IMG/VR virus record: IMGVR_UViG_3300043775_002158
Location: 1 to 64,000 of that record
From: a virus
Reading direction: 5' to 3' (one strand)
DNA: 64,000 nucleotides
The translations under genes were made by a program, and so were the position numbers. Shown here piece after piece: positions 16,617 to 61,555 of the stretch (its first letter is position 1; each line of letters begins with the position of its first letter). A model generated the notes under the pieces. The model did not search any database, was not told the DNA's origin, and saw only the letters and a list, made by a program, of their open reading frames with translations.

Positions 16617-16618
16617 AA

Positions 16619-26119: not shown

Positions 26120-26671
26120 ATGAGTAAGATAATTAATTTTTTTGGTGGACCTGGTATTGGTAAATCCACTCAAGCCTCAGGTTTATTTACTGAGATGAAA
26201 AAACACCACATGAGTGTTGAATATACATATGAGTTCCCAAAAGAGGTTGCTTGGGAGGGTAATGTATCTCAATTAAGTGATCAGTTCTTCATTACCGCAA
26301 ATCAACATAGAAACATTAGTCGTCTTTATGGTAAGGTTGATTATATTATTGTAGATTCCCCAATTGTATTAGGTTGTTTTTATGAACAACGATATGGTGA
26401 GGGTTATCCCGCATCACACTACTCAATGTCAGGTTTAAGTAATTTCCTTTGGTCTTTATTTAAAAAATATGACAACATAAACATATTATTAAAAAGAAAT
26501 GATGAGACATATGATACAAATGGTAGATTACAAGGTCTACAAGAAGCTCAGGAGATCGATGAGGACATTAAGCTTACGTTGGGCGTTAACAATATACCTT
26601 ATAGTGAATTTAGTGTTCATAATGACACTCCTTTGGAGATTTATAGGTATTTAATAGAAAAGAATTTATGA
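26120..26671 (+). CDS. P-loop nucleotide kinase/ATPase
   Basis: A 183-residue protein with a Walker A GGPGIGKST (9-17) and a Walker B-like strand KVDYIIVDSP (about 72-81). The small size and the later DTNGRLQGLQEA resemble phage AAA/NadR-like kinase proteins. The stop overlaps the next ATG by four bases, so it is translationally coupled with the secreted nuclease gene. Substrate not known. Confidence 0.75.
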   Translation: MSKIINFFGGPGIGKSTQASGLFTEMKKHHMSVEYTYEFPKEVAWEGNVSQLSDQFFITANQHRNISRLYGKVDYIIVDSPIVLGCFYEQRYGEGYPASHYSMSGLSNFLWSLFKKYDNINILLKRNDETYDTNGRLQGLQEAQEIDEDIKLTLGVNNIPYSEFSVHNDTPLEIYRYLIEKNL

Positions 26672-32546: not shown

Positions 32547-33253
32547 TGAATAATCCTTTTAATTTTTTTGACAAGATATTTTATATCAATTTAGATTCTC
32601 GTACAGATAGACAAGAATTTATGGAAGAACAATTTAAAAAGTTTAATATCGATGCTGAAAGATTTAGCGCCGTAAGTTTAACTAAAGAACAAAATGATGA
32701 TTTAGTAAAAAGAGGTTGTAATTTTTACGATGATCCAAGACCTAATTATGCTCCAAGAATAAAATCATGTACAATATCACATCTTTCAGTTTTATTAAGA
32801 GGTAAAATGATGGATTATGAAAATATTTTAATTTTTGAAGATGATGCGTTAATAGATGATAACATCATTAAAGATTTAGATGATTGTGTAAATGATTTAA
32901 AAAATAAAGAATGGGACATGTTTTATTTAGGTTGTAATCCCTTAGAATATTATAAAGAAACGGAAAATATAGGTAGAGTATTGAGGACTACAACAAATCA
33001 CGCATATTCTATTAATAGAAGATTTTATGATAAAATATTAACCAACTCAAATTTCTTTAGAAGATATCCATGTAATGATGGATATTATGGTGGTTTAGGT
33101 AGAGATAAAAATAATAAAATCTACATGGCATTAAAAAATTTAGTAACACAGAAAGAAAGTTTTTCAGATATTGAGGGTCATGACGTTAATTATACGTATT
33201 CAATAAATGATAAATACAAATATAACATTATAGAAAAACCTCAAGGATGGTAA
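32546..33253 (+). CDS. GT25-type glycosyltransferase
   Basis: A 235-residue protein starting with FFDKIFYINLDSRTDRQEF and continuing with CTISHLSVL and ILIFEDDALI (about 92-101): the (I/V)NLD..DR, acceptor-helix and EDD motifs of family 25, used in lipopolysaccharide and glycoprotein decoration. It overlaps the fucosyltransferase gene by seven bases. Confidence 0.87.
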   Translation: MNNPFNFFDKIFYINLDSRTDRQEFMEEQFKKFNIDAERFSAVSLTKEQNDDLVKRGCNFYDDPRPNYAPRIKSCTISHLSVLLRGKMMDYENILIFEDDALIDDNIIKDLDDCVNDLKNKEWDMFYLGCNPLEYYKETENIGRVLRTTTNHAYSINRRFYDKILTNSNFFRRYPCNDGYYGGLGRDKNNKIYMALKNLVTQKESFSDIEGHDVNYTYSINDKYKYNIIEKPQGW

Positions 33254-34020
33254 TAACATATGACTTTTTAGCGAAACATGGACAATTAGGAAATCAAATG
33301 TTTCAATACGCATTATTACTTGGAGTTAAACATAAATTAAATTGCGATATTGTAATCGATACCGAAGTAAGAAATAGATCTTATCTATTTAATTTTTTTG
33401 ATTTAAAGGAACCAATAATAAAAGATTTTCAAACTGACAATTTATTTAATGAAATCGATTATCATTTTAATTCTAATGTATTTGACATAAAGGAGGATAC
33501 AAATTTTAGAGGTTATTATCAATCTGAAAAGTACTTTAAACATTGTGAAAATATTGTTAGAAACGAGTTCACATTTAAATCAGAAATTAGTGACAGAGTG
33601 TTTGAATTTATCAAACCATTTGAAGGTAAAAGATTAGTATCGGTACATATTAGAAGAGGTGATTACTTAATTAATCCCGACGCTCATCCATTATGTTCTT
33701 TAGATTATTACAATCAATCGATGGATATGTTAGACGGTGAAAACGTAATGTTTATATGTTCATCAGATGATAAAGAATGGTGTGAACAAAATATCAAAAG
33801 AGATAATATTGTTTTTAATAAGTCAGATCTTGCACATGATATGTGTTTAATATCGAAATGTAATGACCACATTATCGCAAATAGTACGTTTAGTTGGTGG
33901 GGTTCTTGGTTATCTCAAAATAAAAATAAAAAAATAATCGCACCAAGTACTTGGTTTGGTCCTAGATATTCACACTGGGATTTAAGTGATTTATATTGTG
34001 AAAACTTTATAAAAATATAG
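33247..34020 (+). CDS. GT11 alpha-1,2-fucosyltransferase-like
   Basis: A 257-residue protein with GQLGNQMFQYALLLG (12-26), VSVHIRRGDY (about 135-144) with the HxRRGDY GDP-fucose motif of GT11, and NSTFSWWGSWLS. It adds fucose in alpha-1,2 linkage in characterised members. No fucose-nucleotide synthesis genes are present in this window, so the donor would come from the host or elsewhere in the genome. Confidence 0.88.
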   Translation: MVITYDFLAKHGQLGNQMFQYALLLGVKHKLNCDIVIDTEVRNRSYLFNFFDLKEPIIKDFQTDNLFNEIDYHFNSNVFDIKEDTNFRGYYQSEKYFKHCENIVRNEFTFKSEISDRVFEFIKPFEGKRLVSVHIRRGDYLINPDAHPLCSLDYYNQSMDMLDGENVMFICSSDDKEWCEQNIKRDNIVFNKSDLAHDMCLISKCNDHIIANSTFSWWGSWLSQNKNKKIIAPSTWFGPRYSHWDLSDLYCENFIKI

Positions 34021-34024
34021 ACAT

Positions 34025-34633
34025 ATGTTAATGACCGATCTACAAAAACATTTTACAAAACCTTTAAAAGGTGCAATCCACATTGGTGCACATCACGGAC
34101 AAGAAAAGGGGTGGTACAATCAAAATGGTATTAATCCGATAGTTTGGATCGATGCCAATCCACAATACGAATTAGGTTTAAGAACACAATACCCAAATGA
34201 TATTACAATAATATCTGGTGTTGGGAGTGAGAATAAAATTGAAAAATTTAAAATTGCAAATAATGGTGAATCATCGTCATTTTTAAATTGGGGAACTCAC
34301 CAAAATGAACATCCACATGTTAACTTTATTGATGAAATAGAAGTTCAAATAAAACCAATGGAACAATTAATTCAAGAAAACAATTTAGATGTTGAAAAAT
34401 ATAATTTTTTAAATGTCGATGTTCAAGGGTATGAATTGGAAGTTTTTAAAGGATTCGGTGAATATCTTAATAATTTTGATTACGTTTATTGTGAAGTAAA
34501 TGAAGATTATCTTTATGAAAATTGCGCATTAGTTTCAGATATTGATGATTATCTTTCTAAATATAATTTAGAAAGAGTTGAGACGTTTATGACGATACAT
34601 AAATGGGGAGATGCTTTATATGTAAAAAAATAA
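34025..34633 (+). CDS. FkbM-family methyltransferase
   Basis: A 202-residue Rossmann methyltransferase: GAIHIGAHHGQEKGWY (about 16-31), IVWIDANPQYE, ISGVGSENK and NFLNVDVQGYELEVFKGF (the FkbM LDVEGxE-type motif). Probably methylates a sugar hydroxyl of the glycan built by the neighbouring genes. Confidence 0.87.
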   Translation: MLMTDLQKHFTKPLKGAIHIGAHHGQEKGWYNQNGINPIVWIDANPQYELGLRTQYPNDITIISGVGSENKIEKFKIANNGESSSFLNWGTHQNEHPHVNFIDEIEVQIKPMEQLIQENNLDVEKYNFLNVDVQGYELEVFKGFGEYLNNFDYVYCEVNEDYLYENCALVSDIDDYLSKYNLERVETFMTIHKWGDALYVKK

Positions 34634-34634
34634 T

Positions 34635-35719
<1,085 letters not shown>

Positions 35720-35723
<4 letters not shown>

Positions 35724-44048: not shown

Positions 44049-44972
44049 AATTTTGTATAGGCCGTATGGTTTTACATACATTCACCACCACTTTGTTTTT
44101 CTAAACAAAGAAAATAAAACTCTGAGAATACAAGTTTTAACAATCGACTTAGGAACATTATTTGTTTCTTTCCCTTTCCACAACCTTTTGAGTTGTACCG
44201 ATCAATGACGGTCAATTAGATTAACCAATCCTAAAGTCATCAGATACTCTTTTATTACTTATTACTCAACAAATCTGCCGACCTGTTTCAACCTTGCGGG
44301 TTTAGAGAACTTTCTTAAAAATCATATTGGGATTGAGTCCCTTTATGGCCGTGAACCCCTCACGACTAAGTAGTCACCTGTCTCCAATGACTGACGAACA
44401 CTTTTTCTTTTTATGTATGATTTTTATACCAAAATAAAAATTTAGTTTTCCGAATTGAGAAAGTAGTGGTTCGTCACCTAGCCAAGTTATCTTTTGAACA
44501 ACTCGATACTAAACTACTCTCTGAAGTGTCCCCACCTCCATATTTTTGGTTTCCTTCGAGATTAAACCCTTGGTAGGATTTATTCAAGGACACTAACAGC
44601 ACCACCTGTTTTTTGTCATACCTTCCATCTTACGATGCTACGGTTTTAAGACCACCATTGTATTGAATTACGCAATAATAAAGTCGGATAACTATACTTC
44701 TTACATTAATTCTATGGATTATTCTTATTGATGTTCCCATCTCAACCAAACAACTCGGATTGCTTGGTCATCCAACCCTTTCGCTACGGAGTTACCCTCA
44801 CTACTTCAGGTTAAATGATATTCCACTTGTCTACTCGAGATCTCTTTCGAAATCCGCAACTTACCCCAACCAAGGGTTTGTCACTTTATCCCACTTTCGT
44901 GGTTTATTTTATTGACTATAGACGGCCAATATTTTTATTCAAAGAACATTATCTTTTGGGTTATTCACCCTT
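44022..44972 (-). ncRNA. Large structured non-coding RNA (GOLLD/ROOL-type candidate)
   Basis: About 950 nt without a plausible gene. It is bounded by a near-ideal host-type promoter and a strong terminator. GC content is higher than in flanking genes. Many local hairpins are visible (for instance GGGTGAATAACCC at the 5' end, GGGACTCAATCCC, AACC/GGTT, ACAAC/GTTGT). An A/T-rich linker at about 44410-44445 splits it into a 5' half of about 530 nt and a 3' half of about 370 nt. Size, phage origin and closeness to tRNA genes fit the ornate large RNAs GOLLD and ROOL. The class is inferred from these features; no conserved core was checked. Confidence 0.7.
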
Positions 44973-48606: not shown

Positions 48607-48669
48607 TTATCTTAAAAATATTTTATAATCAATTATGAATCAATGTGATAAGAACTGATATTTATCAAT

Positions 48670-49185
48670 ATGACAAAAATAAAAGGACTCTCTCTCCTTT
48701 TATGTACTTTGTTCTTGGCATTCTCTTCATTTGCTCAGGACACACAAAAAGTGTACATATCTGGCGTTGAGAACAAAATTAAAATCGGACGTATGACGTC
48801 TAACCGAAACTTAGCTTTCGGAGTTAAAAACATTTTTGAAGAAATTTTACAGGATAAGGACTTCACAATCGTAGAGGTACGTAGTGAGGCTGACGTTTTA
48901 TTAAACGTTGATTTATTATTTTTTGACGTTAATAAAACTAAAAGAAACGTTTCAGTATTCCATTCTAATGTTGAAGAAACATTGGTAATAATGAAAGGTA
49001 CTATTACCGACAAATCAGGAAAAAAATTAAAAGAGGTGGTGGCCGAAGAATCAAGTTCAGAAATTTCTACATCAACGTTAATCACTGACGAAGGAAGTGG
49101 ACAAATAAACCAACAAGCATTGTCTTCCGCAATTAAGAAGACATGTGTTTTACTTGTAGATAAAATATTTTTAAATAAGAAATGA
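48670..49185 (+). CDS. Exported protein, CsgG/LpoB-like candidate (171 aa)
   Basis: Signal peptide with hydrophobic 6-19 and cleavage after FAQ (21-23). The mature part (VYISGVENKIKIG, LAFGVKNIFEEILQD, TIVEVRSEADVLLNVDLLFF) follows a strand-helix-strand order seen in periplasmic CsgG/LpoB-like proteins, but similarity is weak. A TATTTATC box at 48659-48666 is four bases from ATG. It opens the envelope block and overlaps the next gene by four bases. Confidence 0.6.
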   Translation: MTKIKGLSLLLCTLFLAFSSFAQDTQKVYISGVENKIKIGRMTSNRNLAFGVKNIFEEILQDKDFTIVEVRSEADVLLNVDLLFFDVNKTKRNVSVFHSNVEETLVIMKGTITDKSGKKLKEVVAEESSSEISTSTLITDEGSGQINQQALSSAIKKTCVLLVDKIFLNKK

Positions 49186-50831
49186 AAAAACTAACATTAT
49201 TAATGGGATTATTTTTATTAATGTCCCTATCATCATTTGCCCAATTAACAATTAACCAATCTATAACTCCAACTACAGGTTTAAAAGTGGGAGATACATT
49301 AACGGTTAAATATACAATTAATAGAGGGGCAACAACACCTCGTTATTTTTGGTTAAGATACTCTTTTAATAATAAAGCATTGTCAATGGTGTCAAATAGT
49401 ACCACTTTTACACAAGGCAGTTCAACACAAACATTTTATACAGGTTGGGATAATTACAAATTTACACCGGCAGCAAATATTGTGGATACACAATTATATG
49501 CACAATATCAAGTTACACCTTGGGGATATGAGGTAAATTCTGATTGGAATGTTGGACAATTAACAATTCAAAGAGCCGACGCTTCAATTAATGGTGACAT
49601 TGCCACACAAAAATTTGTATTAAAAGACCAAAACACATATAATAATATTCATAAATTAGATTTGGCATATTCAATTAATGCAACAGATGAGTATATTTCA
49701 CCAATTACAAGAAGTTCAACAAACATATCTTTAACCAATGTGGTAGGTAACACATCTCAATTCAAAGTTAGAGTATTATTTCCACAAGGATATACAATTT
49801 CCGACCACAATGTTCAATTGATGAGATTAAAAACAGATGGTAGTGGTGATATTGATTGGTCACAACAACCAATCGCACAAAAAGCATTGGATGCAAGTGG
49901 TGAGGTAATATTCACATCGGGTGTTAAAGTCGGTGATAGTGTTGGTGTATTTGTATCTCCCGCTTCCCAAAAGACTTGGATGAACAACGTAATCACAGTT
50001 TCAGATGCATATAAAGCATTCTTAGGACACTCTCAAACTGATATTAGTGGAACGGCAAACTTCTTTACAAGACCTGTTTTAGAAAGAAAAATAGGTAATG
50101 TAACAAAAAACGATATGACATTTAACGAATCTGACTCATATAATTTATTTGCACACGTAATTGGACAAGATGTATCGGTAAACGCATTTATCCCAACATC
50201 AACTTCAACTTCTTGGAGATGGCATAGTGGTTTATTGAATCAAAGTTGGTTAGATGGTGTTACTAAGAATAGAGTATACATTACGGCTCCATCACAAACT
50301 GTTGATGCAGTATTTGCGTGGGGTGGTGATTTAAACTGGTCACACTCATCTCATCCTGACACAATTGCAACTAAAATTACACAAGGTAATTTCACAAACT
50401 CAATAAACGATAACAAATATCAATCATTCTCAGTAAAGTCGATGTCATATACTCAACCTACATTTGAAAAGGTAACTTTAGGAATTAACTCTACTTTGGA
50501 AAATGGTAAAGTTGTATTAACTACTACATTGACAAAAGAAGGATTGGCAGGTTTACAAGTTATAATGAATTATGACGAAAGTAGATTGACGTTGGATAAT
50601 GTAATATTTGATGCGGGAAGTACGATTACAAACTTCTCAACTCATAAAGATGGTAGATTGACATTTGGATCTATTGATCAATTAAAAACATCAAGAATTA
50701 AAGTAGGAACACCGTATAAATTAATTTTCACTCCTAAAGTTCAATTAACAAATACTGCCGGTTTATTCTTCTTTGTATTGGCGGATGCGGTTGATGGATT
50801 GGGTAAGAAAGTTGATTTGACAATAGAATAA
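49182..50831 (+). CDS. Exported protein with dockerin-like and cohesin-like modules
   Basis: A 549-residue protein; signal peptide ends SSFAQ (about 21). Beta-rich N-terminal domains (about 22-270) precede VSDAYKAF. Next comes GNVTKNDMTFNESDSYNLFA (about 306-325), a degenerate dockerin-like calcium repeat (N.D...F.E.D.YNL). The C-terminus (about 427-549) has INSTLENGKVVLTTTL, LAGLQVIMNYDESRLTLDNV and GLFFFVLADAVDG, the strand order of cohesin-like beta-sandwiches. The 50835 protein has the same tail, so both may belong to one surface or virion assembly. Export of both is predicted. Confidence 0.72.
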   Translation: MKKLTLLMGLFLLMSLSSFAQLTINQSITPTTGLKVGDTLTVKYTINRGATTPRYFWLRYSFNNKALSMVSNSTTFTQGSSTQTFYTGWDNYKFTPAANIVDTQLYAQYQVTPWGYEVNSDWNVGQLTIQRADASINGDIATQKFVLKDQNTYNNIHKLDLAYSINATDEYISPITRSSTNISLTNVVGNTSQFKVRVLFPQGYTISDHNVQLMRLKTDGSGDIDWSQQPIAQKALDASGEVIFTSGVKVGDSVGVFVSPASQKTWMNNVITVSDAYKAFLGHSQTDISGTANFFTRPVLERKIGNVTKNDMTFNESDSYNLFAHVIGQDVSVNAFIPTSTSTSWRWHSGLLNQSWLDGVTKNRVYITAPSQTVDAVFAWGGDLNWSHSSHPDTIATKITQGNFTNSINDNKYQSFSVKSMSYTQPTFEKVTLGINSTLENGKVVLTTTLTKEGLAGLQVIMNYDESRLTLDNVIFDAGSTITNFSTHKDGRLTFGSIDQLKTSRIKVGTPYKLIFTPKVQLTNTAGLFFFVLADAVDGLGKKVDLTIE

Positions 50832-50834
50832 TTT

Positions 50835-53423
50835 ATGAAGAAACTATTAGTAGTATTATTTTTATTTATATCATTTTTAGGGTTTGGTCAGTCGGTTTTG
50901 GCACCAGACCCTAAGTCATTTATTGTTAATACCACAGGACAAGATGCAAGTGGGTTTGAGTTAACTGGATTTAATTCAACCGCAACTTTATTAGCATCGG
51001 TGAGTTTAGTATCACCACCAGCAGGAACAACATTCTATTTAAACACTTACACAGGTCTAACCGCAGCAAGTGGTTTCAATATGATTGGTAATAAAACTAA
51101 ATTGGTGTTTACCGGAACAATGGCAAATATCAATACGGCATTGGCATCATTAAAAATTAACACAGGTTCTATTTCGGGTGATATTGTCATATCAGTCGCA
51201 GCAACTATAAATCCAACTGGTTTCTTTTACAATGGAACAAACGGACACTTTTATAGACCAATATCAACAGGAACAAGCTATACGGGTGCAAGAGCAGCGG
51301 CATTAAATACTACATTTAAAGGACAGACTGGATATTTAGTAACAATAACTTCGGCAGATGAAGATGCGTTTGTATTTAATAATGTACCACAAACAAACAT
51401 TTGGTTTGCACTAACGGATGAAGAAACAGAAGGCCAATGGAAAATTGATGCTGGTCCTGAAAAGGGAACTTTAATCAAAACATCAAACGGACAAACTGCG
51501 GGTAATATACAAGGACAGTACAATAACTGGGCACCTGGTGAACCAAACAATAGTGGTAACGAAGATTATGCGGTAACAAAATGGAACGGTTCTCAATGGA
51601 ATGATTTACCGAATGGATTTAGTTGCCCTTATGTAATTGAATATGGAACTTGGACCAATCCTGATGATGCAACATTTACCGAATTTTATACTAACAGTGT
51701 AGTTCATTCAAACGGAGAAACAATAAAAGCATTATTCAATTTTACATTTGGTGGAGCAACTGATAAAAGTAAATTTTCAGCAAGATTATTTAATAGAAGC
51801 GATGCGACATCAACATGGGTAGCCGGTGGTTCTTATAAATCATTAAGTGGATTGGGTAAAGTATATCTTTCAAATCAAATAGATACTGCAAAGATATTTT
51901 CAACCGCAATTCAATTAACGCCGGGTACAAATGATATGACACAATTTAGTTCTGCTGATATTGGTAAGGTCTATAAACTAACAACAACTGGAGCAAGTGG
52001 TGGTGGATGGGGAACGGACATTTATACAAGTGACTCTTATATACCCGCTATGGCAGTTCACGCAGGAGTTTTAACAATCGGACAAACAAAAGAAATTTAT
52101 ATTAAAATAGTTGAGGGAAAAAGTAGTTATTTAGGTTCAACCCGTAATGGAATCACAACGTCAGAATGGGGTGGATGGGGATTGAGTTATCAATTTGTAT
52201 CTCAACCATCTTCATACAAGGCAATATCATCACCTGGCCAAGTTGAATGGTGTGTGATATATGACTACGATGCATCAAATCAAAGATATAGAGTTGGGAT
52301 TGATAAGAGAGAATTTGATGGAACCAACGTATCACCAAATAATGTATCATCACTAAAATTATTTGATTTGTGGGATGGAAATGTAACATTTGATAGTGAA
52401 GACATATATTGGGCAAATTATTGGATTAATACACCAACCCAATTTAATTTTACGGGTTCATCATTTTCATCATTTATAAGACAAGGCAATGGATTTTACG
52501 GAGTAAGTAGTGAGTTTACCTTTTCACAATTAGGTACATACAAACAACACAAAATGGAATTAAATGAATATGATAATGTACAATTAAAAACATTATATAA
52601 TAACATTGTAACAGTATCGGATGTTTATTTGGCATTTAAGGAATTATCTAATAAGGGTTTATTTGGTAATCAAAGTGGTAATGAATTTGGATATGGTATT
52701 CAATATATAAATGCAGATGTGGATGATAATGGTGTATTCAATGAAGTGGATACATATAAATTATTACAAAATTTAACGGGTGTAAATGATTTAGTTAGCA
52801 GTTATACTTTGGATAATACTATAAAAGTAATTCCAGACTCAATCTATAATTTAATTGGTAAATCAACATGGAGTTCATTTACATCATACAAAGGTAAATC
52901 ATATTCATTTAGTTTATTGGATAATGTGTTGAATTACAATTACAATTTATCTGTGAGTTGGAAAGGTGATGTGAATTTATCACATTCAGCAACACCTCCT
53001 TCAAATGGTATAACAACAATGTCGGTTAGAACATCAATGAGTACACCGATATCAAACGAAATAAATTCATCAATTATGTCCGAAATTGTGGGAGATAGTG
53101 TTTATGTATATATTACAATAGACCCATTACAACAAGAATTGGTGGGGACACAGTTTAAGTTAAATTACGATAATGATTTATTAAAGTTTAATAATGTAAT
53201 ATATAAAACAAAAGGATTACCAACTAACTATGCGACGGACAAAGGGAATTATATTAATTTAGGTTCTCTAATAACGGATGGTGGAACTTTAGATAATACC
53301 ACTGAATATAAATTATCATTTACAACAAAAACAAAGTTGGAGAATATATTCGGTTTAATTTCGGTTGGGTTAATGGATGCAGTAAACAAAAGTGGTAGAA
53401 CATTAAAAGTAATAATGAAATAA
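50835..53423 (+). CDS. Exported C-type lectin protein with dockerin and cohesin-like modules
   Basis: An 862-residue protein; signal peptide ends GFGQ (about 18). A repetitive Ala/Gly/Thr beta domain (20-125) is followed by a C-type lectin domain at about 130-272: HFYRPISTGTSYTGARAAA, GYLVTITSADED, NIWFALTDEETEGQWK, W-A-P-G-E-P-N-N and WNDLP. A dockerin-like NADVDDNGVFNEVDTYKLL is at about 632-650, and the C-terminal cohesin-like domain at about 735-862 (VGTQFKLNYDNDLLKFNNV). Lectins are common in phage tail fibres, but a signal peptide is not. It may adhere to host glycans. Confidence 0.8.
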   Translation: MKKLLVVLFLFISFLGFGQSVLAPDPKSFIVNTTGQDASGFELTGFNSTATLLASVSLVSPPAGTTFYLNTYTGLTAASGFNMIGNKTKLVFTGTMANINTALASLKINTGSISGDIVISVAATINPTGFFYNGTNGHFYRPISTGTSYTGARAAALNTTFKGQTGYLVTITSADEDAFVFNNVPQTNIWFALTDEETEGQWKIDAGPEKGTLIKTSNGQTAGNIQGQYNNWAPGEPNNSGNEDYAVTKWNGSQWNDLPNGFSCPYVIEYGTWTNPDDATFTEFYTNSVVHSNGETIKALFNFTFGGATDKSKFSARLFNRSDATSTWVAGGSYKSLSGLGKVYLSNQIDTAKIFSTAIQLTPGTNDMTQFSSADIGKVYKLTTTGASGGGWGTDIYTSDSYIPAMAVHAGVLTIGQTKEIYIKIVEGKSSYLGSTRNGITTSEWGGWGLSYQFVSQPSSYKAISSPGQVEWCVIYDYDASNQRYRVGIDKREFDGTNVSPNNVSSLKLFDLWDGNVTFDSEDIYWANYWINTPTQFNFTGSSFSSFIRQGNGFYGVSSEFTFSQLGTYKQHKMELNEYDNVQLKTLYNNIVTVSDVYLAFKELSNKGLFGNQSGNEFGYGIQYINADVDDNGVFNEVDTYKLLQNLTGVNDLVSSYTLDNTIKVIPDSIYNLIGKSTWSSFTSYKGKSYSFSLLDNVLNYNYNLSVSWKGDVNLSHSATPPSNGITTMSVRTSMSTPISNEINSSIMSEIVGDSVYVYITIDPLQQELVGTQFKLNYDNDLLKFNNVIYKTKGLPTNYATDKGNYINLGSLITDGGTLDNTTEYKLSFTTKTKLENIFGLISVGLMDAVNKSGRTLKVIMK

Positions 53424-53446
53424 AAACAAATTAAAAAACAAAAATT

Positions 53447-54130
53447 ATGGCAGACAGAAACGGAGACGGAGTTGTTTATCATCGCTCAGATTGTGGTGAT
53501 AATTATGTAAGATGGTATGGGTTCGGTGGAGATGGACCTTGTTCGGCGTGTGATACGTGGGGACTTACCAATAAAGCAATAAGATATATTCATGACCACC
53601 CTGAAATAAATCATAGACTTGAAGATGTGGTAGGTAGAGAGTGGGATGAAGAGGTTATGCCAGTATTAACAGAGGTTTATGAAGAAGTAAAAGAAGGTGT
53701 AATAGACGCATATAATTGGGTGGACGCAAACGCTTGTAATATAGCTGTAACAGCAGCAATCTCGGCGGGAGTTGTTTACGCATTCACACCAGAACCGGCA
53801 AACCCAACAGCGGTGGCAACATCAACTACTTTATCGGCAATGGCATCAACTATTACTAATATGGCAGTTAAAGTTGCGGTAGTAGGAGAAATGAGTGAAA
53901 TTATAACAAATGGATTTTTACTAATACCATTTGTAAGTGATAGTATTGACCACACTCTATTATACAATATAATTTCAAATTGTTTAGCTAAAAGTTTAGA
54001 TTCTGCGGAGTTATGGGCAACACCAGCCGGTGTTGGTATTGCGATTGGAGCAGCAATTGCACCTGTTATTGCGGATTTGATATGTAAAAAAACTTGTCCT
54101 GAAGGATTTACTAAAGCATTTGGTGCGTAA
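53447..54130 (+). CDS. Protein with cysteine-rich head and hydrophobic helices (227 aa)
   Basis: No signal peptide. Residues 1-45 carry four to five cysteines (HRSDCGDNYVRW, GPCSACDTWG). Helices that could span the membrane follow (NIAVTAAISAGVVYAF, about 103-118; AMASTITNMAVKVAVVG; AGVGIAIGAAIAPVIADL near the end), separated by acidic segments. It resembles colicin-like or holin-like hydrophobic hairpins only loosely. The stop overlaps the next ATG. Confidence 0.58.
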   Translation: MADRNGDGVVYHRSDCGDNYVRWYGFGGDGPCSACDTWGLTNKAIRYIHDHPEINHRLEDVVGREWDEEVMPVLTEVYEEVKEGVIDAYNWVDANACNIAVTAAISAGVVYAFTPEPANPTAVATSTTLSAMASTITNMAVKVAVVGEMSEIITNGFLLIPFVSDSIDHTLLYNIISNCLAKSLDSAELWATPAGVGIAIGAAIAPVIADLICKKTCPEGFTKAFGA

Positions 54131-55023
54131 TGAAAAAACTAATAACCATATTATTTTTACTTTGTGTAAGTTTTGTTACAAATGCACAAATACAAAAACC
54201 AGATACGTTACAACTATCGGCAAAAGAACTATTTGGAGAAAGTGATGATTGGAACGATGTGGGTATATTACAATCCTATGTTAATTTTTCAAAAGATGTC
54301 CTATCATCATCAAACCTTTCAATTGGTGTAATTGGAAAACAAGTATCTACAACTCTTAATTTGGGATATAATAAATCATCATTGAATGGGAAGTGGGGAC
54401 ACTCATTTGCAGCATCAATAAACCCTATTTGGAATTATTATGGTGTAGGGTATGGTCTTAGTAGAAATACCGAAAAGAGAACAACTACAATACAAACATT
54501 TTATTCTACGGACTTTGATTTCCAAAAAGATATTAACTTATCATTTATTGATGTATTCAGAACAAAAAAATGGGGAACATTCGGTTATAGTTTAACAGCA
54601 TCAAAATCATTTTGGGGAACTTATCAGGGTGAGTGGGAAGGGAAATATACGGTTGATGAAAATGGTGATTTTAAAGATTTAATATATCCAATGATACCGG
54701 CATCAAGTGAAATAAGTTATAGAGGTATGATGATGTACACTTATACATTGAAAACAAAGAGAGTAAACATCTCACCACAAATATTTGCAATGAGTGATGT
54801 ATATAAAGTATTTAAAGATGGAACTGAATCAGATTTGGCATATGTAGATGATTTCAATTTGGACTTATATTATGGTACATCTATTGATTGGAAAATAACT
54901 AAAAGATTTGTATTGAATACCAATGTTAGATATAATACAACTTGGGATAAATTAAGTGAATCAGTCGGTTATAAAAAAAGTAACCCAATAATGTTTATGA
55001 TAGGAACAAACTTTCAATTTTAA
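54130..55023 (+). CDS. Outer-membrane beta-barrel candidate (297 aa)
   Basis: Signal peptide ends TNAQ (about 20). The mature protein alternates aromatic and polar strands (SLNGKWGHSFAASINPIW, YYGVGYGLSRN, GTFGYSLTASKSFWG, LNTNVRYNTTWDK) and ends in FQF, typical of barrel proteins that insert through BAM. A shared segment, ISPQIFAMSD, occurs in the C-terminus of the 60107 protein as SPQLFVMSS. A phage-encoded outer-membrane protein could block or alter receptors. Confidence 0.7.
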   Translation: MKKLITILFLLCVSFVTNAQIQKPDTLQLSAKELFGESDDWNDVGILQSYVNFSKDVLSSSNLSIGVIGKQVSTTLNLGYNKSSLNGKWGHSFAASINPIWNYYGVGYGLSRNTEKRTTTIQTFYSTDFDFQKDINLSFIDVFRTKKWGTFGYSLTASKSFWGTYQGEWEGKYTVDENGDFKDLIYPMIPASSEISYRGMMMYTYTLKTKRVNISPQIFAMSDVYKVFKDGTESDLAYVDDFNLDLYYGTSIDWKITKRFVLNTNVRYNTTWDKLSESVGYKKSNPIMFMIGTNFQF

Positions 55024-55397
55024 TGAGTAAAAAAGATTTAATATCATTCATAGTAATTTATTTATTAACCACATTTGTAATATTATTTAGTGGTTGTAGA
55101 AAAACGCAGACTATTCCAACACCACCACCGATAAATAAAGAATTTTTTAATTCACCCGAAAACAACGTTAAAAATGGGGATATTATTAATTTTAATTTAA
55201 CTACAGTTGGTGTTTATACTTTGACAATGATTGATACGGTTCAAAATCAAGTTGTGACCAGAGAAAGATTTACGGGTAAAATTGGTTTAAACTCACTTAA
55301 AATATTTACAAAAACTTTACCGACAAAATACCTAAGTGTCGTTTTAAAGGATCAAAATAATCAACAGATAGGTAAAACAAGAATAATAATAAATTAA
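55023..55397 (+). CDS. Lipoprotein with sorting-domain-like fold (124 aa)
   Basis: A lipoprotein signal with lipobox F-S-G-C (about 23-26). The remaining about 95 residues (VYTLTMIDTVQNQVV, GLNSLKIFTKTLPTKY, SVVLKDQNNQQIG) have the strand pattern of type IX secretion C-terminal sorting domains, but here they form the whole mature protein. It overlaps the preceding gene's stop by one base and is followed by a paralogue. Confidence 0.65.
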   Translation: MSKKDLISFIVIYLLTTFVILFSGCRKTQTIPTPPPINKEFFNSPENNVKNGDIINFNLTTVGVYTLTMIDTVQNQVVTRERFTGKIGLNSLKIFTKTLPTKYLSVVLKDQNNQQIGKTRIIIN

Positions 55398-55410
55398 AAA
55401 ATAACAAAAA

Positions 55411-55779
55411 ATGAAAAAAGTATCTCTCGTACTCTTCGGTTTGATTCTACTTGCTGGATGTAGAAAATCAGATTTTCCAACGCCACCTCAATCAGTTAGC
55501 GACGATTTAAAAATTGCTAGTTTATCAGGATTAAAATTACAAACTGCATTTGTAACAAGTGAAGTTTCAATGAACATAAAAAGTGAGACATCTCAGACTG
55601 TAACTATCAGAATCTTTGATATTGCAAATAGAGTAGTGTCTAAATCAACAAGCGACGTAAAGTCAGGTGATAATATATTGAAGATATACACTTCATCATT
55701 ACCGTCATCAGGTTATAGAATAGCAATTTACGATCGTGCCGGTAATATGTTAGGTATTACGGACTTTAATAAAATTTAA
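55411..55779 (+). CDS. Lipoprotein with type IX sorting-domain-like fold (122 aa)
   Basis: A lipoprotein signal with L-A-G-C (about 14-17). The C-terminal about 75 residues (TVTIRIFDIANRVVSKS, GDNILKIYTSSLPSSGY, IAIYDRAGNMLG) are very close in layout to the type A C-terminal sorting domain of type IX secretion (V.I.I.D..GR.V, G.N...I....LP.G.Y). The 55023 protein is a paralogue. In the host this domain directs cargo to the type IX translocon, so an isolated lipidated copy is odd. Confidence 0.65.
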   Translation: MKKVSLVLFGLILLAGCRKSDFPTPPQSVSDDLKIASLSGLKLQTAFVTSEVSMNIKSETSQTVTIRIFDIANRVVSKSTSDVKSGDNILKIYTSSLPSSGYRIAIYDRAGNMLGITDFNKI

Positions 55780-55809
55780 GATAATTATAGTATATAAAAA
55801 CACAAAATT

Positions 55810-56118
55810 ATGGCAGAAGAACAACAAGAACAATCAACCGGTGGTTCAATTAAGAATATACTTATCGGTTTAGTAAGTACCATCACATTAGGTGTGGGTG
55901 GTTGGTTTACAACAAAATTAACGGGTGGTGACGAAAAAGAAACTCCGGCACAACAAGCTGCACCTGTAATCAACATTACAAACTCTAATCAACAATCACA
56001 AGCTGCAGGAGGTAAGACTGTTATTATTAAAGAAAAGTCAACAACACCAGCACCGGCACCAAAACCAAAACCTAAAAAAGATGGTGACGAATTTAAAGAA
56101 GAGACACCAAAATGGTAG
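55810..56118 (+). CDS. Single-span protein with Pro/Lys-rich tail (102 aa)
   Basis: One membrane span at about 15-32 (IKNILIGLVSTITLGVGG), then a long Ala/Pro/Gln-rich stretch with APAPKPKPKK near the end. This layout resembles TonB-like or spanin-like proteins that reach across the periplasm. It overlaps the tiny gene at 56112 and begins a run of small membrane genes. Confidence 0.65.
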   Translation: MAEEQQEQSTGGSIKNILIGLVSTITLGVGGWFTTKLTGGDEKETPAQQAAPVINITNSNQQSQAAGGKTVIIKEKSTTPAPAPKPKPKKDGDEFKEETPKW

Positions 56119-56225
56119 GTTTGGGTTTAGAGGTTGAAACTGCAACCTTAATTTTTACGATTATAATAATTGGGATGTCGATAAAGACATCCTTGGAATT
56201 GACAAAAAAAGAAAAAAATGGCTGA
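56112..56225 (+). CDS. Tiny membrane protein (37 aa)
   Basis: ATG at 56112 overlaps the preceding stop by seven bases and its own stop overlaps the next ATG by eight. The 37 residues have one hydrophobic segment (LIFTIIIIGMSI) and a basic tail (KKEKNG). Overlaps on both sides and membrane composition support it as real; a holin- or antiholin-type role is possible. Confidence 0.55.
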   Translation: MVGLGLEVETATLIFTIIIIGMSIKTSLELTKKEKNG

Positions 56226-56826
56226 TCAACAACCACCAAGTGGATTTAAAGAATTATTAGCAAATATGATGAAACGTAGATGGTTCATCACTGCAATTGT
56301 ATTAGGGGGATTTATGATAATCATAATGGGAATATTTGGGGCAATCCTAAATAAATCCGCTATTGAAGGAGAATGGAAAGAACTTCTACTATTGTTATTG
56401 GGTGCATTTATCGGTAGTTACGGTAAAATAATCGACTATTGGTTTAGTGATACTGATAAGGATAAAATGTTAGTTCAGAAAATGGATGAAGAAGATGGTG
56501 TATCGTTGAGTAATACTAACGATGGTCCAAATACTCCAATCGTACCAATGTCAATAGCACCATTAGTGTTATCAGAATCAACCGAACAAATAACCGAACA
56601 ATTAGTTGAAACACCAAAAGTAGAAAAGAAGGGTGTTGAAATCGATGAAGATGGTGACGGTGTTATGGATGGTTTAGATTTCGATGGTGATGGTAAAATC
56701 GATGAATATTTCGCACACAGACAATGTGAACACGTTTGGGGTGACTTAGACGGTGACGGAACAGAGGAGTGTTTGAAGTGTGGTAAAGTTAAGGATGAAT
56801 ACGCAGAAATGCATATGGAAGGATAA
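56218..56826 (+). CDS. Membrane protein with calcium-type repeats and zinc ribbon (202 aa)
   Basis: Two membrane spans (about 22-42, WFITAIVLGGFMIIIMG; 54-68, ELLLLLLGAFIG) with a short loop, then a linker and repeated D-x-D-x-D-G loops (DEDGDGVMDG, DFDGDGKID, DLDGDGTE) interrupted by CEHVW...CLKCGK, a small zinc ribbon. The N-terminal half could be a holin; the calcium loops could sense or scaffold. It lies in the run of lysis-type membrane genes. Confidence 0.68.
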   Translation: MADQQPPSGFKELLANMMKRRWFITAIVLGGFMIIIMGIFGAILNKSAIEGEWKELLLLLLGAFIGSYGKIIDYWFSDTDKDKMLVQKMDEEDGVSLSNTNDGPNTPIVPMSIAPLVLSESTEQITEQLVETPKVEKKGVEIDEDGDGVMDGLDFDGDGKIDEYFAHRQCEHVWGDLDGDGTEECLKCGKVKDEYAEMHMEG

Positions 56827-56855
56827 AATAAACAAAAGACAAAAAATAAAAAACT

Positions 56856-57104
56856 ATGAAATTTAAAGAATGGGCTATTGAACTCTTCAAAGACGAAAGA
56901 GGTTCAATTTCAGTAAAACCAGTTATTGCATTTGTAGGGGCGATGTTCCTATGTGTGACTATGATCTTAAATTCGTTCTCTCACGCGGATTTCGCCCCAT
57001 CACCTGAATTGGTGAATGCGGTGATGATTATCACGGGAATTGGGATGGGTGCCGATACGATGGATAAATTCTCTCACAAAAAGAAAGAAGAAACAGAAGG
57101 TTAA
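56856..57104 (+). CDS. Small two-span membrane protein (82 aa), holin candidate
   Basis: MKFKEWAIELFKDERGSISV, then spans at about 22-38 (PVIAFVGAMFLCVTMIL) and 52-66 (LVNAVMIITGIGMG), and a Lys/Glu tail. This order (amphipathic start, two spans, charged C-terminus) is recurrent in phage proteins placed beside lysis genes. A terminator follows at 57111. Confidence 0.7.
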   Translation: MKFKEWAIELFKDERGSISVKPVIAFVGAMFLCVTMILNSFSHADFAPSPELVNAVMIITGIGMGADTMDKFSHKKKEETEG

Positions 57105-57110
57105 TATGAA

Positions 57111-57137
57111 GGAGGGTTTATCCCTCCTTTTTTTTTT
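57111..57137 (+). terminator. Rho-independent terminator
   Basis: GGAGGG pairs with CCCTCC around TTTAT, followed by ten or more T. Confidence 0.9.
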
Positions 57138-57161
57138 CATATATTTATTAAAAATGAATTT

Positions 57162-57368
57162 ATGAAAAATTTAAGAGATATTTTAGCTTTAAGGTTTATT
57201 CAATTAGTATTTGTATGGGTAAGTTTTGCTCTAACATTTCAGGTGTTTATGATTATAACACATTTTACCAATCCTGAATTGAGTACAAAAATAGGTAATG
57301 AAATTATGTGGAAAATAGACGGTACATTTAAAAATGATCCTGATAATATTTGGTATGAAAAAAAATAA
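57162..57368 (+). CDS. Single-span membrane protein (68 aa)
   Basis: MKNLRDILALRFIQLVFVWV begins with a short amphipathic helix and one long span (about 12-33), then a periplasmic-type tail (IDGTFKNDPDNIWY). A TATTTATT box stands shortly before the ATG. It is seven bases from the lipase gene, so it may work with it. Confidence 0.62.
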   Translation: MKNLRDILALRFIQLVFVWVSFALTFQVFMIITHFTNPELSTKIGNEIMWKIDGTFKNDPDNIWYEKK

Positions 57369-57374
57369 AACAAG

Positions 57375-58118
57375 ATGACAAAAAACGAAATATTATATAA
57401 TGTCGGTTTAACCGATAAAGTATATTCAGAACAAAAAGATATTGATTTTAAAGCACAAAGGTTAAAATTAATTAAATGGATTGAAGATAAAAAATCAGAC
57501 ACACAAGGATTTGTTGCAACGAAAGATAATACAATTTATATTGTGTGGAGAGGTAGTTCTTCTAAAAAAGATTTCCAAAACGACGCCTCTATCGATAAAG
57601 TTCCTTTTATTGAAGAAGGTGAGAAAGTTCATATTGGATTTAAAACCTGTTGGGATGCCGTAAAGGATGATACATATAAAGCATTAGATATTGCACTTAA
57701 AAACTTAGGTCAAGAACATTCAATAGATAATATTGTTGTTTGTGGACACAGTTTAGGTGCGGCAATTTCTACCTTGTGTGCATATGAAATCTATTCAATT
57801 TATAAATCAAATAAAATTATATGTTGTACCATAGGTAGTCCAAGAGTTGGTAATAAAATATTCAAACAAAACTTTGATAAATCACCAATTGAATCGTTAA
57901 GGATTGTTAACAATTTAGATATTGTAACTCGTGCACCAAATATTGGATATCACCACGTTAATACCGAATTACGTATTGATAGTGAGGGTAAAGTTAAAAA
58001 ATGGATGATTGATTGGCAAAGAGTTGGTGAATATCTTAAAGCCGTATTCACAGGTAAGACTGCGAAAGATCATATGACAAATAATTACATAAGTGCATTA
58101 AATAAATGGAACCCATAA
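57375..58118 (+). CDS. Class 3 lipase-family hydrolase
   Basis: A 247-residue alpha/beta hydrolase. VWRGS (58-62), then HIGF (86-89), GHSLGAA with nucleophile S126 (124-130), the GSPRVGN strand, D182 in NNLDIVTR and H193/H194 in GYHHVN complete the Lipase_3 layout (Ser-Asp-His). It has no signal peptide and no capsid leader. It could attack membrane lipids at lysis; the gene order with membrane proteins supports this but does not prove it. Confidence 0.88.
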   Translation: MTKNEILYNVGLTDKVYSEQKDIDFKAQRLKLIKWIEDKKSDTQGFVATKDNTIYIVWRGSSSKKDFQNDASIDKVPFIEEGEKVHIGFKTCWDAVKDDTYKALDIALKNLGQEHSIDNIVVCGHSLGAAISTLCAYEIYSIYKSNKIICCTIGSPRVGNKIFKQNFDKSPIESLRIVNNLDIVTRAPNIGYHHVNTELRIDSEGKVKKWMIDWQRVGEYLKAVFTGKTAKDHMTNNYISALNKWNP

Positions 58119-58127
58119 AAAAAATAT

Positions 58128-58847
58128 ATGAAAAAATTATTAATATTATTAAGTGTTTGTTTAGTAAGTCTTGTTGCAAATAGTCAAACAATAGGTAAAA
58201 CTAAGACAGAGGACTTCAAGGCGGACTTTGAAAAGAAAAAGGATATAAGTACTTACTTAGATTATGACGGACCTCAAATACCCGTTCAAATCCTTAAATG
58301 TGGTATTTCTGACGAAGTATATGAGATGTATCCAGAATTAAAGGAAAAACGTGTAGGTTTAGGTGTTGCTAATATCTCTATGGAATATCTTGAGAACTTA
58401 AACAGATTTAAATTTACTGAGGACAAGACAGAAATTAAGAATCGCATGGTAAAACAATTCCAAGCATCTCAAGCCGGTATTTCTGAGAACAAATTAGATG
58501 GTCGTGGTAAAATCAATTTGGCTAAGTATTTTGTAACTATCGAGTGTTATGATTATTCGGTATCTGAAGATGAAACTATCAACCTAAAAGACGGTATTAA
58601 AGATAATATGGTTACTCGTATTGGTTTACAAGTTAGATTTACTGACGCCGAGACAGGACTAGTATTTGCAGGTTCAGGTTTAGGTGAAGCTAAGACAACA
58701 AGAGAGTTGACTTTATTATCTGATGCAACTATCGACCCAATTAAATTTAATCAATCAACCATCAGTATCTCAACTAAAAAGGCGTTAGATATTGCGGTTG
58801 CTAACATTCTTGATAGAATGATTAAAAAAGGTATTTTCACAAAATAA
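58128..58847 (+). CDS. Exported protein, CsgG-like candidate (239 aa)
   Basis: Signal peptide ends ANSQ (about 20). Middle: KRVGLGVANISMEYLENL, MVKQFQASQAGI, AKYFVTIECYDYS and GLQVRFTDAETGLVFAGSGLG. The order of strands and the late TG.V...G.G resemble CsgG/curli-assembly-like proteins, in which such segments recur. The 48670 protein is similar in layout. Both could be part of an exported assembly. Similarity is weak. Confidence 0.6.
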   Translation: MKKLLILLSVCLVSLVANSQTIGKTKTEDFKADFEKKKDISTYLDYDGPQIPVQILKCGISDEVYEMYPELKEKRVGLGVANISMEYLENLNRFKFTEDKTEIKNRMVKQFQASQAGISENKLDGRGKINLAKYFVTIECYDYSVSEDETINLKDGIKDNMVTRIGLQVRFTDAETGLVFAGSGLGEAKTTRELTLLSDATIDPIKFNQSTISISTKKALDIAVANILDRMIKKGIFTK

Positions 58848-59080
58848 TGAAATACGAAGTTGTTGATATTCCACAACCGGAAAATTGTGAAAAATGTACA
58901 CCATGTCTTAGACTTAGATTAATGGAAATGGGGTTTATTACGGGAGAAAGAATTGAATTTGGAGAAAGTAGATTAGGTTTATATATGGTTAATATATTAA
59001 CCGAAAATGACCATATCTCTTCGGTGGTTGCACTTAGACAAGAAGAATTGGATAGAATATGTTTAAAAGGGGTTTTATAA
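58847..59080 (+). CDS. FeoA-domain protein (77 aa)
   Basis: A 77-residue protein with PCLRLRLMEMGFITGERIEF (about 19-38) and SVVALRQEEL, which is the FeoA SH3-like pattern (RL.EMGF..G..I). Paired cysteines (CEKCTPC) at the N-terminus are extra. FeoA normally acts with the FeoB iron transporter; none is present here. The stop overlaps a terminator hairpin. Confidence 0.75.
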   Translation: MKYEVVDIPQPENCEKCTPCLRLRLMEMGFITGERIEFGESRLGLYMVNILTENDHISSVVALRQEELDRICLKGVL

Positions 59081-59090
59081 CCCCTTTTTT
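59064..59090 (+). terminator. Terminator overlapping the FeoA gene end
   Basis: AAAAGGGGTT pairs with AACCCCTTTTTT around TTAT. TATTTATA (59093-59100) restarts transcription three bases before the next ATG. Confidence 0.8.
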
Positions 59091-59103
59091 AGTATTTATA
59101 TGT

Positions 59104-59283
59104 ATGGAAAAATTTTATAGAACATATGACGATAGAGTCTTTTTTGGTATTTGTAGCGGTTTGGGGGTTAGAACCAATATCGATCCTTTAGTTTGGAGAT
59201 TATTGTTTTTTTTCTTAATTTTTTCACCGGTACCAATAATAACAGGTTATTTATTAACTACAATTTTAACTAAAAGTGTATGA
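59104..59283 (+). CDS. PspC-domain membrane protein (59 aa)
   Basis: ATG 59104 gives MEKFYRTYDDRVFFGICSGL, then IDPLVWRLLFFFLIF and one strong span. This is the PspC pattern (D.R...G.C.GL...ID...RLLF). The upstream in-frame start at 59059 is rejected because it overlaps the terminator. PspC proteins sense or stabilise the inner membrane in bacteria; in a phage it may counter membrane stress or aid lysis timing. Confidence 0.82.
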   Translation: MEKFYRTYDDRVFFGICSGLGVRTNIDPLVWRLLFFFLIFSPVPIITGYLLTTILTKSV

Positions 59284-60107
59284 AAAAATTTTTATTAATC
59301 GTCGGTTTAATTTTAATTTTAACGTTATTTGTTTCAATAATGTTAAACGCTCAAGTAAGTTCTTGGAGAAATAATTCACAACAAAGAACAACCGCACCAA
59401 GAATTCAACCATCAACTCCACAAAGAAATGACGTTAGTCGATGGAGAACACAAACAGAACCAATTAGACCAGGTCAACCTATTCCAAATAGACCTTTAGT
59501 GAGAAGATGGAGAGGTGGGGGTGTAAATCCATATGGATTAATGTGGGGAAATTGGGGGTGGTATCAACCATACCCATATATTTGGTACGATGATTATGGA
59601 TGGAGACATAGAAGTGTAGTTCGTGTTTATGAAAATGGAAAAAGAGATACTGTTAAAAAGGAAACATATTATACTTTAGGTATTGGACATACAAATAACA
59701 ATCAAGCTTCTTTTTGGGGTGCTGTAGGTGGTAATAAAGGATACTTTATTGTTGATTACGTTATGACCTATGAAATTGATCGCAACCAATATTTTCCAAA
59801 TGGTAAAATTAATGAAGTTGATTTTCCGTTAAGTAAAAATGACTTTTTAAAAGAGGGTACATTATATCTTGGTGGAGGTAAGAGATTCGGTAAATTAGGT
59901 GTCCATGGAATGGTTGGATTTGGAAATGAAATTATTAGATACCAAGGTAAAGATGATTTAGGTGGTATTTCATTTCCTAAATCAAATTCAAATTTTACAA
60001 CATTTAAATTTGGTATTATAAGAGATTTCAAATTCTTCACATTAAAGTTAGATAGAGACCCAATAAGAAATTACAATCAAATATCAATTGGATTGAATAA
60101 TAAGTAA
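59280..60107 (+). CDS. Exported Arg/Trp-rich barrel-like protein (275 aa)
   Basis: Signal peptide ends LNAQ (about 25). A Gln/Pro/Arg stretch with W-R repeats (SSWRNNSQQR, SRWRTQTEP, RRWRGGG) and a Tyr/Trp-rich loop (WYQPYPYIWYDDYGW) cover about 27-115. The C-terminal half looks like a beta-barrel (YYTLGIGHTNNN, GTLYLGGGKRFG, FFTLKLDRDP, QISIGLNNK). It is probably an envelope protein. The start overlaps the PspC stop. Confidence 0.6.
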   Translation: MKKFLLIVGLILILTLFVSIMLNAQVSSWRNNSQQRTTAPRIQPSTPQRNDVSRWRTQTEPIRPGQPIPNRPLVRRWRGGGVNPYGLMWGNWGWYQPYPYIWYDDYGWRHRSVVRVYENGKRDTVKKETYYTLGIGHTNNNQASFWGAVGGNKGYFIVDYVMTYEIDRNQYFPNGKINEVDFPLSKNDFLKEGTLYLGGGKRFGKLGVHGMVGFGNEIIRYQGKDDLGGISFPKSNSNFTTFKFGIIRDFKFFTLKLDRDPIRNYNQISIGLNNK

Positions 60108-61555
60108 TGAAAAAAAATCTAATTGTTTTATTAATTTTATGTTTCATAGGTTTTAAATCATATGGACAAACATTTACACAAACATTTATTGATAAATGTA
60201 CAGGTGAAGTTAAAGTTGCAACAACAACTTATATAAGTGGTAATGCATTTGTATCTTTTTATAATCAAAGTAAAACATTCACACCTTTAGAAGTCCAAAC
60301 AGGACAATTACAATTATGGTTACAAACAACTTACGCAACATATAACTCGATGGCCTGTCCAACAAATCAGGTAGTTCAACAAACAATACAAAATACAGTT
60401 ACACAGGCGGCGGCAACCGCAGCAAGTAATGCAGCATCTTCGGCGGCAAGTAATGCGGCATCTTCAGCTGCAAGTAATGCGGCAAGTTCATCGGCATCAA
60501 CTGCGGCGAGTTCGTCGGCATCAACTGCTGCGAGTTCGTCGGCATCAAGTAGTTCCGCCGCAACATCAAGTTCAAGTACAACAACATCATCTAGTAGTTC
60601 ATCTTCATCTAGTAGTTCATCTTCATCTAGTAGTTCATCTTCATCTTCTGAATCAAAGACTGAGAGTAGTTCTTCATCATCGGAATCAAAATCTGAAACA
60701 AAGAGTGAATCAAAATCTGAAAGTAAATCAGAAGAAAAAAAATCAGAAAGTAAATCAGAAGAAAAAAAAGAAGAGAAAAAGTCAGAGGAAAAGAAAGAGG
60801 AAAAGAAAGAGGAAAAGAAAGAGGAAAAGAAAGAGGAGAAGAAGAAGGAAGAAAAAAAAGATAAAAAGGAAGATAAGAAAGAAAAAAAGAAAGGAGGAGT
60901 ATTAAATCCGATGTTAATTGCCTCAGATTATACTGTTGCTCAAAATGCGGATAAAAGTTTTGGTTCTATGTTAGGGTTGGGTTGGAGTAAATCATCATTA
61001 ATGGGTGACGAATCTTTTTCAGCAAATGCAATTATATGGAGTAACCTAAAACAATTTGCGTTAGGTGGTGGATATACCAAAATGGACTTTAGTGGTGGTA
61101 AATTAAATGCCATACATTCTTATGGTGTAACAACCGCATATTTGAATGGTAATTATATGGGTTTACTTGGTTATACTTACATTAAACCACATCCTAAATT
61201 TGGAACTTACGGATACAATATAGGTGTTGTAAATTTATTCATTAAAGATGAAAAAGGTAAATTTAATTATAGTGTTGTAAGTTCAGCTGTTGCATTTTGG
61301 ACTAAACCATATTCATATTCAAAGAAACTTTCAATATCACCTCAATTATTTGTTATGTCTTCACCATTATCTTATAATACAGTTACGGGAGTAAGTATGG
61401 TTAATAGACACGCAGGATATTTGGTTGGAGGTTCGTTTGATTATAAATTAAGTAAAAGATTTGGGTTTACTTTTAATTATAGAATGAACGGATCAACTCA
61501 ACCATATAGTCCTATTTTACATAACTTCTTGATTGGTAGTAGAATGACATTATAA
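60107..61555 (+). CDS. Exported Ala/Ser- and Glu/Lys-repeat protein with C-terminal barrel (482 aa)
   Basis: Signal peptide ends SYGQ (about 21). A globular N-part (22-100) leads to low complexity: Ala/Ser repeats (about 104-150), a long poly-Ser run (about 160-182), Ser/Glu/Lys and then Glu/Lys repeats to about 263. The C-terminal 210 residues alternate aromatic strands (GSMLGLGWSKSSLMG, MGLLGYTYIKPHPKFGTYGY, SPQLFVMSS, GFTFNYRMNG) and end LIGSRMTL, as in outer-membrane barrels; part of it resembles the 54130 protein. The charged stretch could form a long single helix linking a head to the barrel. Confidence 0.7.
   Translation: MKKNLIVLLILCFIGFKSYGQTFTQTFIDKCTGEVKVATTTYISGNAFVSFYNQSKTFTPLEVQTGQLQLWLQTTYATYNSMACPTNQVVQQTIQNTVTQAAATAASNAASSAASNAASSAASNAASSSASTAASSSASTAASSSASSSSAATSSSSTTTSSSSSSSSSSSSSSSSSSSSSESKTESSSSSSESKSETKSESKSESKSEEKKSESKSEEKKEEKKSEEKKEEKKEEKKEEKKEEKKKEEKKDKKEDKKEKKKGGVLNPMLIASDYTVAQNADKSFGSMLGLGWSKSSLMGDESFSANAIIWSNLKQFALGGGYTKMDFSGGKLNAIHSYGVTTAYLNGNYMGLLGYTYIKPHPKFGTYGYNIGVVNLFIKDEKGKFNYSVVSSAVAFWTKPYSYSKKLSISPQLFVMSSPLSYNTVTGVSMVNRHAGYLVGGSFDYKLSKRFGFTFNYRMNGSTQPYSPILHNFLIGSRMTL

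Follow-up and report, generated by a model that had tools for sequence, protein, structure and literature searches.

A block of signal-bearing genes in a large freshwater phage

The stretch of DNA analyzed here, referred to below as the window, comprises the first 64,000 nucleotides of the 105,374-base IMG/VR record IMGVR_UViG_3300043775_002158, which derives from a large freshwater virus. The source is a tailed phage, as the terminase large subunit, portal, head maturation protease, and major head protein were confirmed on the contig with PHROG profiles. Between positions 48,670 and 61,555 lies a block of 17 open reading frames (ORFs), which we propose is probably a phage-encoded surface-display cassette that puts lectin and adhesin proteins on infected cells. 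The genes of the block described below lie on the + strand and are named by their first position.

A previous reading of the letters alone, the sequence-only reading, had assigned Sec or lipoprotein signals to the genes at 48670, 49182, 50835, 54130, 55023, 55411, 58128, 59280, and 60107, and all nine proved to be ORFs whose products carry either a Sec type I or a lipoprotein signal. By a crude, purpose-made signal caller, signal-bearing ORFs numbered 10 of 17 in the block versus 2 of 111 outside it on the 105-kb contig (Fisher p=5e-9). When distinct relatives were compared, the signal was kept in 85/85 for 58128, 52/52 for 54130, 43/43 for 59280, 63/67 for 49182, and 14/14 for 50835. For the lipobox the figures were 69/70 for 55411 and 62/73 for 55023, its Cys being invariant. 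The letters of these N-termini vary between relatives and the signal character persists; 48670 is the exception, in that its N-terminus is often different among relatives. Export of the block proteins is well supported by these predicted signals. The host would be a member of the Bacteroidota, because Gln is found at position +1 of the signal peptides and because the cultured relative described below is the Flavobacterium phage immuto.

Proteins with a predicted CsgG fold

The core of the cassette and its most conserved gene is 58128 (58128-58847), encoding an exported protein with a predicted CsgG fold. Its model (predicted local distance difference test, pLDDT, 75) matched CsgG, the curli pore, with a Foldseek E-value of 8e-6, a probability of 1.00, and a template modeling score of about 0.5. 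The next structural matches were PelC, HpaA, and FlgT, and the kinship with CsgG is therefore placed at the superfamily level. Searches of Pfam, NCBIfam, and PDB sequences gave no match of 58128 to the CsgG family or to any other family. The lipidated N-terminal Cys of CsgG is absent, and in its place all 85 relatives show a type I signal whose +1 residue is Gln, Q20 being invariant. Each CsgG subunit contributes two transmembrane hairpins to the ring; the monomer model of 58128 shows one long hairpin (134-173) and one further strand. No CsgF, curlin-repeat (CsgA/B), pilin, or FecR family was matched in the block, although distant forms of CsgF or curlin could escape Pfam.

The first gene of the block, 48670 (48670-49185), encodes an exported protein of 171 residues related to immuto gp019 and to an Ignavibacteriales protein; for gp019 it is the bit scores that count, as the E-values refer to a tiny set. 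This is probably a second, smaller CsgG-fold protein, because the Ignavibacteriales protein was found by the profiles of both 48670 and 58128. Direct comparison of those two profiles gave a weak match. The PDB sequence matches of the 48670 profile were weak, fell on helical proteins of no sensible relation, and were set aside. In one Ignavibacteriales metagenome-assembled genome both CsgG-fold genes are adjacent, and an adenylate cyclase and a linker-barrel-like protein are encoded further along. In a draw of 396 genomes from the phylum of that assembly, with few candidates scored per genome, at least one matched (that assembly alone), and chromosomal relatives of the cassette look rare.

Predicted outer-membrane barrels

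The product of 54130 (54130-55023), which together with 58128 is the most conserved of the block, is predicted to be an exported outer-membrane beta-barrel. The barrel model is of low confidence (pLDDT 59), and its structural matches in the PDB are outer-membrane barrels; kinship with the best of these, FapF, was not accepted because the model is weak. Its profile gave no match to PDB sequences. The protein encoded by 60107 (60107-61555) has three parts: an exported head domain, a long linker rich first in Ala/Ser and then in Lys/Glu, and a C-terminal barrel homologous to 54130 (hhalign probability 96%, E=2e-9); the low-complexity linker spans 118-282 residues in relatives. No match to either 54130 or 60107 was found in named phages. 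These two account for the two to three barrel-like C-termini that had been claimed, the first by a weak model and the second by homology; 59280 (59280-60107) is an exported protein to which no fold was assigned.

Lectin and cohesin-like proteins and lipoproteins

Two large modular proteins follow 48670, one of 549 residues encoded by 49182 (49182-50831) and one of 862 residues encoded by 50835 (50835-53423), and their C-termini are 31% identical. The latter is a predicted lectin, with Lectin_C (1e-6) and LCCL (5e-11) domains above the Pfam cut-offs. The EPN..WND motifs of the C-type lectin domain are present in 58/68 relatives, and calcium-dependent sugar binding is predicted. An EPN motif suggests mannose-type sugars. 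Of the lectin, dockerin, and cohesin modules noted at first, the lectin is thus confirmed, whereas the dockerin/cohesin-like character of both C-termini was recognized by eye and has no Pfam match in the window proteins. In related loci (L166 gp015 and L156), cohesin domains are above the Pfam cut-off.

The adjacent genes 55023 (55023-55397), encoding an Ig-like lipoprotein, and 55411 (55411-55779), encoding a lipoprotein with a domain resembling the sorting domain of the type IX secretion system (T9SS), are paralogs (hhalign probability 99%). The 55411 domain aligned with the phage sorting domains described below at an hhalign probability of 78%, and also had a match to DUF3244 below the cut-off. 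For lipoproteins of Capnocytophaga, C-X-K-(D/E)2 is the optimal signal for surface export (PMC5080379), and the corresponding motif C-x-[KR]-[DE]2 is present in 32/70 relatives of 55411 and in 2/73 of 55023. A further predicted lipoprotein lies just beyond the block at 64323-64589 on the - strand, if an internal ATG (MKKVTFILALGVVLTLAAC) is its start.

A short version of the cassette in Flavobacterium phage immuto

The cultured phage immuto (NC_055915, Immutovirus), whose host is Flavobacterium sp. LMO8, carries a compact cassette, gp013-gp019, which adjoins replication genes and is annotated mostly as hypothetical. In order, these genes encode a lectin (gp013), gp014, a cohesin protein (gp015), a small membrane protein (gp016), a CsgG-like protein 54% identical to 58128 (gp017), a linker-barrel protein (gp018), and the relative of 48670 (gp019). 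Unlike the window, immuto has no clear counterparts of 54130 or 55023/55411, and it has a true T9SS sorting domain, at the C-terminus of gp015 (44.8 bits versus a curated cut-off of 23). A protein with a T9SS sorting C-terminus was present in 75/80 related viral loci, and TIGR04183 matched 14 of the 16 members tested; none of the window proteins reaches the curated cut-off for the sorting domain (type A). Together, gp015 and the sorting domains of the related loci therefore indicate that in one branch of the cassette, proteins are directed to the host T9SS. Like known cargo of that system with the type A domain (TIGR04183), the proteins of this branch combine a Sec signal with a C-terminal sorting domain, but they are encoded by a phage. 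The lipoprotein with a similar domain in the window branch and the T9SS in the immuto branch would be alternative anchoring routes. Phage-encoded proteins targeted to the T9SS are the most novel part of these observations; a literature search for phage-encoded T9SS cargo and for phage lectin or cohesin genes found nothing on point in the literature covered, which is not proof of novelty. Non-specific nucleases bearing signal peptides are encoded at 26668-27336 of the window and at L166:9935-10513, the immuto gene directly preceding the cassette.

Conservation and exchange of the cassette

Related viral stretches numbered 94 with 54130 as query and 494 with 58128, and the cassette was seen in more than 100 viral loci. 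In a synteny sample of 160 fetched loci, some sharing one contig, the order 48670, 49182, 50835, 54130, 55023, 55411, 55810, 56218, 56856, 58128, 59280, 60107 was near-constant, and 53447, 57375, 58847, and 59059 were optional or mobile. The amino-acid identity of 54130 and 58128 between relatives is about 74-93%, while fourfold degenerate sites are just moderately above the saturated expectation, indicating strong purifying selection on both proteins. Relatives of the cassette, kept under such selection on hundreds of aquatic phage contigs, are almost never named in databases.

Across eleven large cassette-bearing contigs, the major head protein ranged from 92% identical down to undetectable, and cassette identity did not track capsid identity. 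One related locus, L074, is 97.4% identical to the window over 48659-53437, which covers the first three genes, whereas identity is 73-94% over most of the adjacent parts of the block and the DNA flanking it, and 53447 is placed elsewhere. The cassette has therefore been exchanged and reshuffled between phages.

Genes lying between the exported ones

Membrane genes had been reported between the exported ones, and small membrane proteins are indeed present, with no firm family. These are 55810 (55810-56118), a small protein that has a single membrane-like stretch, ends in a Pro/Lys-rich tail, and is also kept in immuto (gp016); 56218 (56218-56826), a conserved membrane protein of 202 residues by its hydrophobic stretch; and 56856 (56856-57104), holin-like by eye. 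No holin or spanin family matched the small membrane proteins of the block above noise. The gene 53447 (53447-54130), whose place varies between phages, encodes 227 residues with a hydrophobic C-terminal region and no signal peptide. A strong terminator-like hairpin at 57108-57130 is followed by 57162 (57162-57368), encoding a 68-residue protein whose homolog in relatives is usually directly upstream of 48670, and by 57375 (57375-58118), encoding a class 3 lipase without a signal peptide (Pfam Lipase_3, 8e-27) that occurs in a minority of relatives (27 loci). Two optional genes, 58847 (58847-59080) and 59059 (59059-59283), encode a FeoA-domain protein (Pfam, 2.5e-5) and a PspC-domain membrane protein (Pfam, 8e-14). 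In related phages, the cassette can include a TonB-dependent-receptor-like outer-membrane protein (Plug, OMP_b-brl_3; L042:15381-17861).

A candidate late promoter motif, [AG]TATTTATA, was found contig-wide, often 13 nt ahead of the start codon. It precedes the terminase, portal, protease, and scaffold genes and several genes whose products share the N-terminal tag described at the end of this report, for example upstream of 73189, 75022, 78351, and 79124. In the block, the exact motif precedes none of the 17 ORFs.

Proposed function and alternatives

The anatomy of the block, namely conserved export signals, barrels, a CsgG-fold protein, surface-lipoprotein motifs, and T9SS domains in relatives, agrees with the remodeling of the host outer surface put forward in the sequence-only reading. 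The particular benefits listed there, namely exclusion of other phages, aggregation, or masking, are more conjectural. The extracellularly assembled appendage offered there as the other possibility gained no direct support, the block having no match to curlin-repeat, pilin, or CsgF families. In the infected cell, an envelope complex would be assembled from the CsgG-fold ring, the barrels, and the small membrane proteins, and would position or anchor lectin and cohesin proteins at the cell surface. The anchor in the window lineage would be the lipoproteins, and in the immuto lineage the host T9SS would export the cohesin protein by means of its sorting domain. More tentatively, and with somewhat less than even expectation, we suggest that this is a viral surface-display organelle of Bacteroidota phages, an envelope-spanning CsgG-fold ring with barrels that coats the infected cell with phage lectins and cohesins via either the lipoprotein surface-export route or the T9SS of the host, depending on lineage. 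The benefit we place first, though it is rather doubtful in itself, would be the masking or blocking of receptors by the coat, so that once a cell is infected neither other phages nor the progeny of the phage itself adsorb to it; second is the holding together of neighboring cells in aggregates. If surface display is correct, the outer surface of infected cells is rebuilt by large Bacteroidota phages, which can also address proteins to a bacterial T9SS, and the cultured phage immuto opens the question to direct testing.

Several observations weigh against surface display. In addition to the weak barrel model of 54130, the lipoprotein 55411 of the window reads CRKSDF, lacking the surface-export motif, and its sorting-like domain is below the cut-off (Por_Secre_tail, 19.3 bits versus 27) and lacks the Lys-rich end. 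The remaining points are those that would suit the main rival, a module for lysis and release. In that scheme the inner membrane would be the target of the holin-like membrane proteins and the lipase, and breaching or linking the outer membrane at the end of infection would fall to the CsgG-like pore, the barrels, and the Pro/Lys-rich 55810. The small membrane proteins 55810, 56218, and 56856 and the Lipase_3 gene would fit such a role, an endolysin gene adjoins the related cassette in L046, the late-type motif precedes 58128 and 59280 in many relatives, and a lysis role for a phage CsgG has been proposed by Buchholz et al. (PMC9004378). We nonetheless consider lysis unlikely, as the holin and spanin searches stayed within noise, the endolysin of the window is far off at 21747 and outside the block, few relatives have the lipase, and the immuto cassette sits beside replication genes. 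Lectins, cohesins, and T9SS cargo would moreover be unexpected in a lysis machine.

It is less probable still that the CsgG-like pore and the barrels are an import aid, bringing nutrients or macromolecules into the infected cell to the benefit of the phage. Import has been suggested for phage curli pores (PMC7029224, PMC9599517) and could draw on the FeoA and PspC domains of the block and the TonB-dependent-receptor-like gene of a relative, but the FeoA and PspC genes are optional, and the lectin, cohesin, and T9SS-addressed proteins are left unexplained. Phage particles commonly bear lectin and Ig-like domains, yet it is highly improbable that the block encodes head or tail decorations with unused signal-like N-termini, as nearly all relatives retain the signal character despite changing letters, a virion would have no evident use for the barrels and lipoboxes, and structural PHROG matches are weak.

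Among known systems, the cassette comes nearest to the curli (type VIII secretion system, T8SS) genes of pelagiphages and methylophage Melnitz, for which superinfection defense, sibling capture, import, and lysis have been proposed (PMC7029224, PMC9004378, PMC9599517). In both cases a phage-encoded CsgG-fold outer-membrane protein lies in a conserved, transferable cluster, and the T8SS function is likewise debated between exclusion, aggregation, import, and lysis. Unlike the T8SS clusters, the block belongs to Bacteroidota phages, has no lipidated Cys and no matched CsgF, curlin-repeat, or FecR protein, and contains in addition barrels, lipoproteins, and lectins, joined in relatives by T9SS cargo. 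By analogy the cassette may work like these curli genes, although several tests of CsgG/T8SS membership were negative.

Phage proteins that exclude other phages include the lipoproteins Llp of T5 and Cor. These resemble the cassette products as phage-made exported proteins acting at the host outer membrane, but they are single small proteins whereas the cassette is a multi-gene envelope set, and the match to Cor was at chance level. A search for defense systems with PADLOC returned one very weak match alone, which was rejected.

Other features of the contig

Genes of the heptose pathway and a cluster of glycosyltransferases that includes a UDP-galactopyranose mutase-like gene were recognized by eye at 15813-17377 and 30211-35723 of the window, suggesting that sugars of the host surface are altered by the phage as well. 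Many otherwise unrelated proteins share an N-terminal tag (MKxxIxxTExQLxxxI...NEQ), encoded in the window at 2857, 3131, 3761, 6850, 9068, 10458, 13678, and 20373 and on the contig at 84382. The tag may be a capsid-targeting propeptide cut by a T4-type head protease, and the late-type promoter motif is upstream of 5 of the 9 tagged genes found by pattern. A full-length GOLLD RNA (Rfam RF02032, 296 bits) is located at 44119-44521 of the window on the - strand, between the tmRNA and the tRNA cluster.
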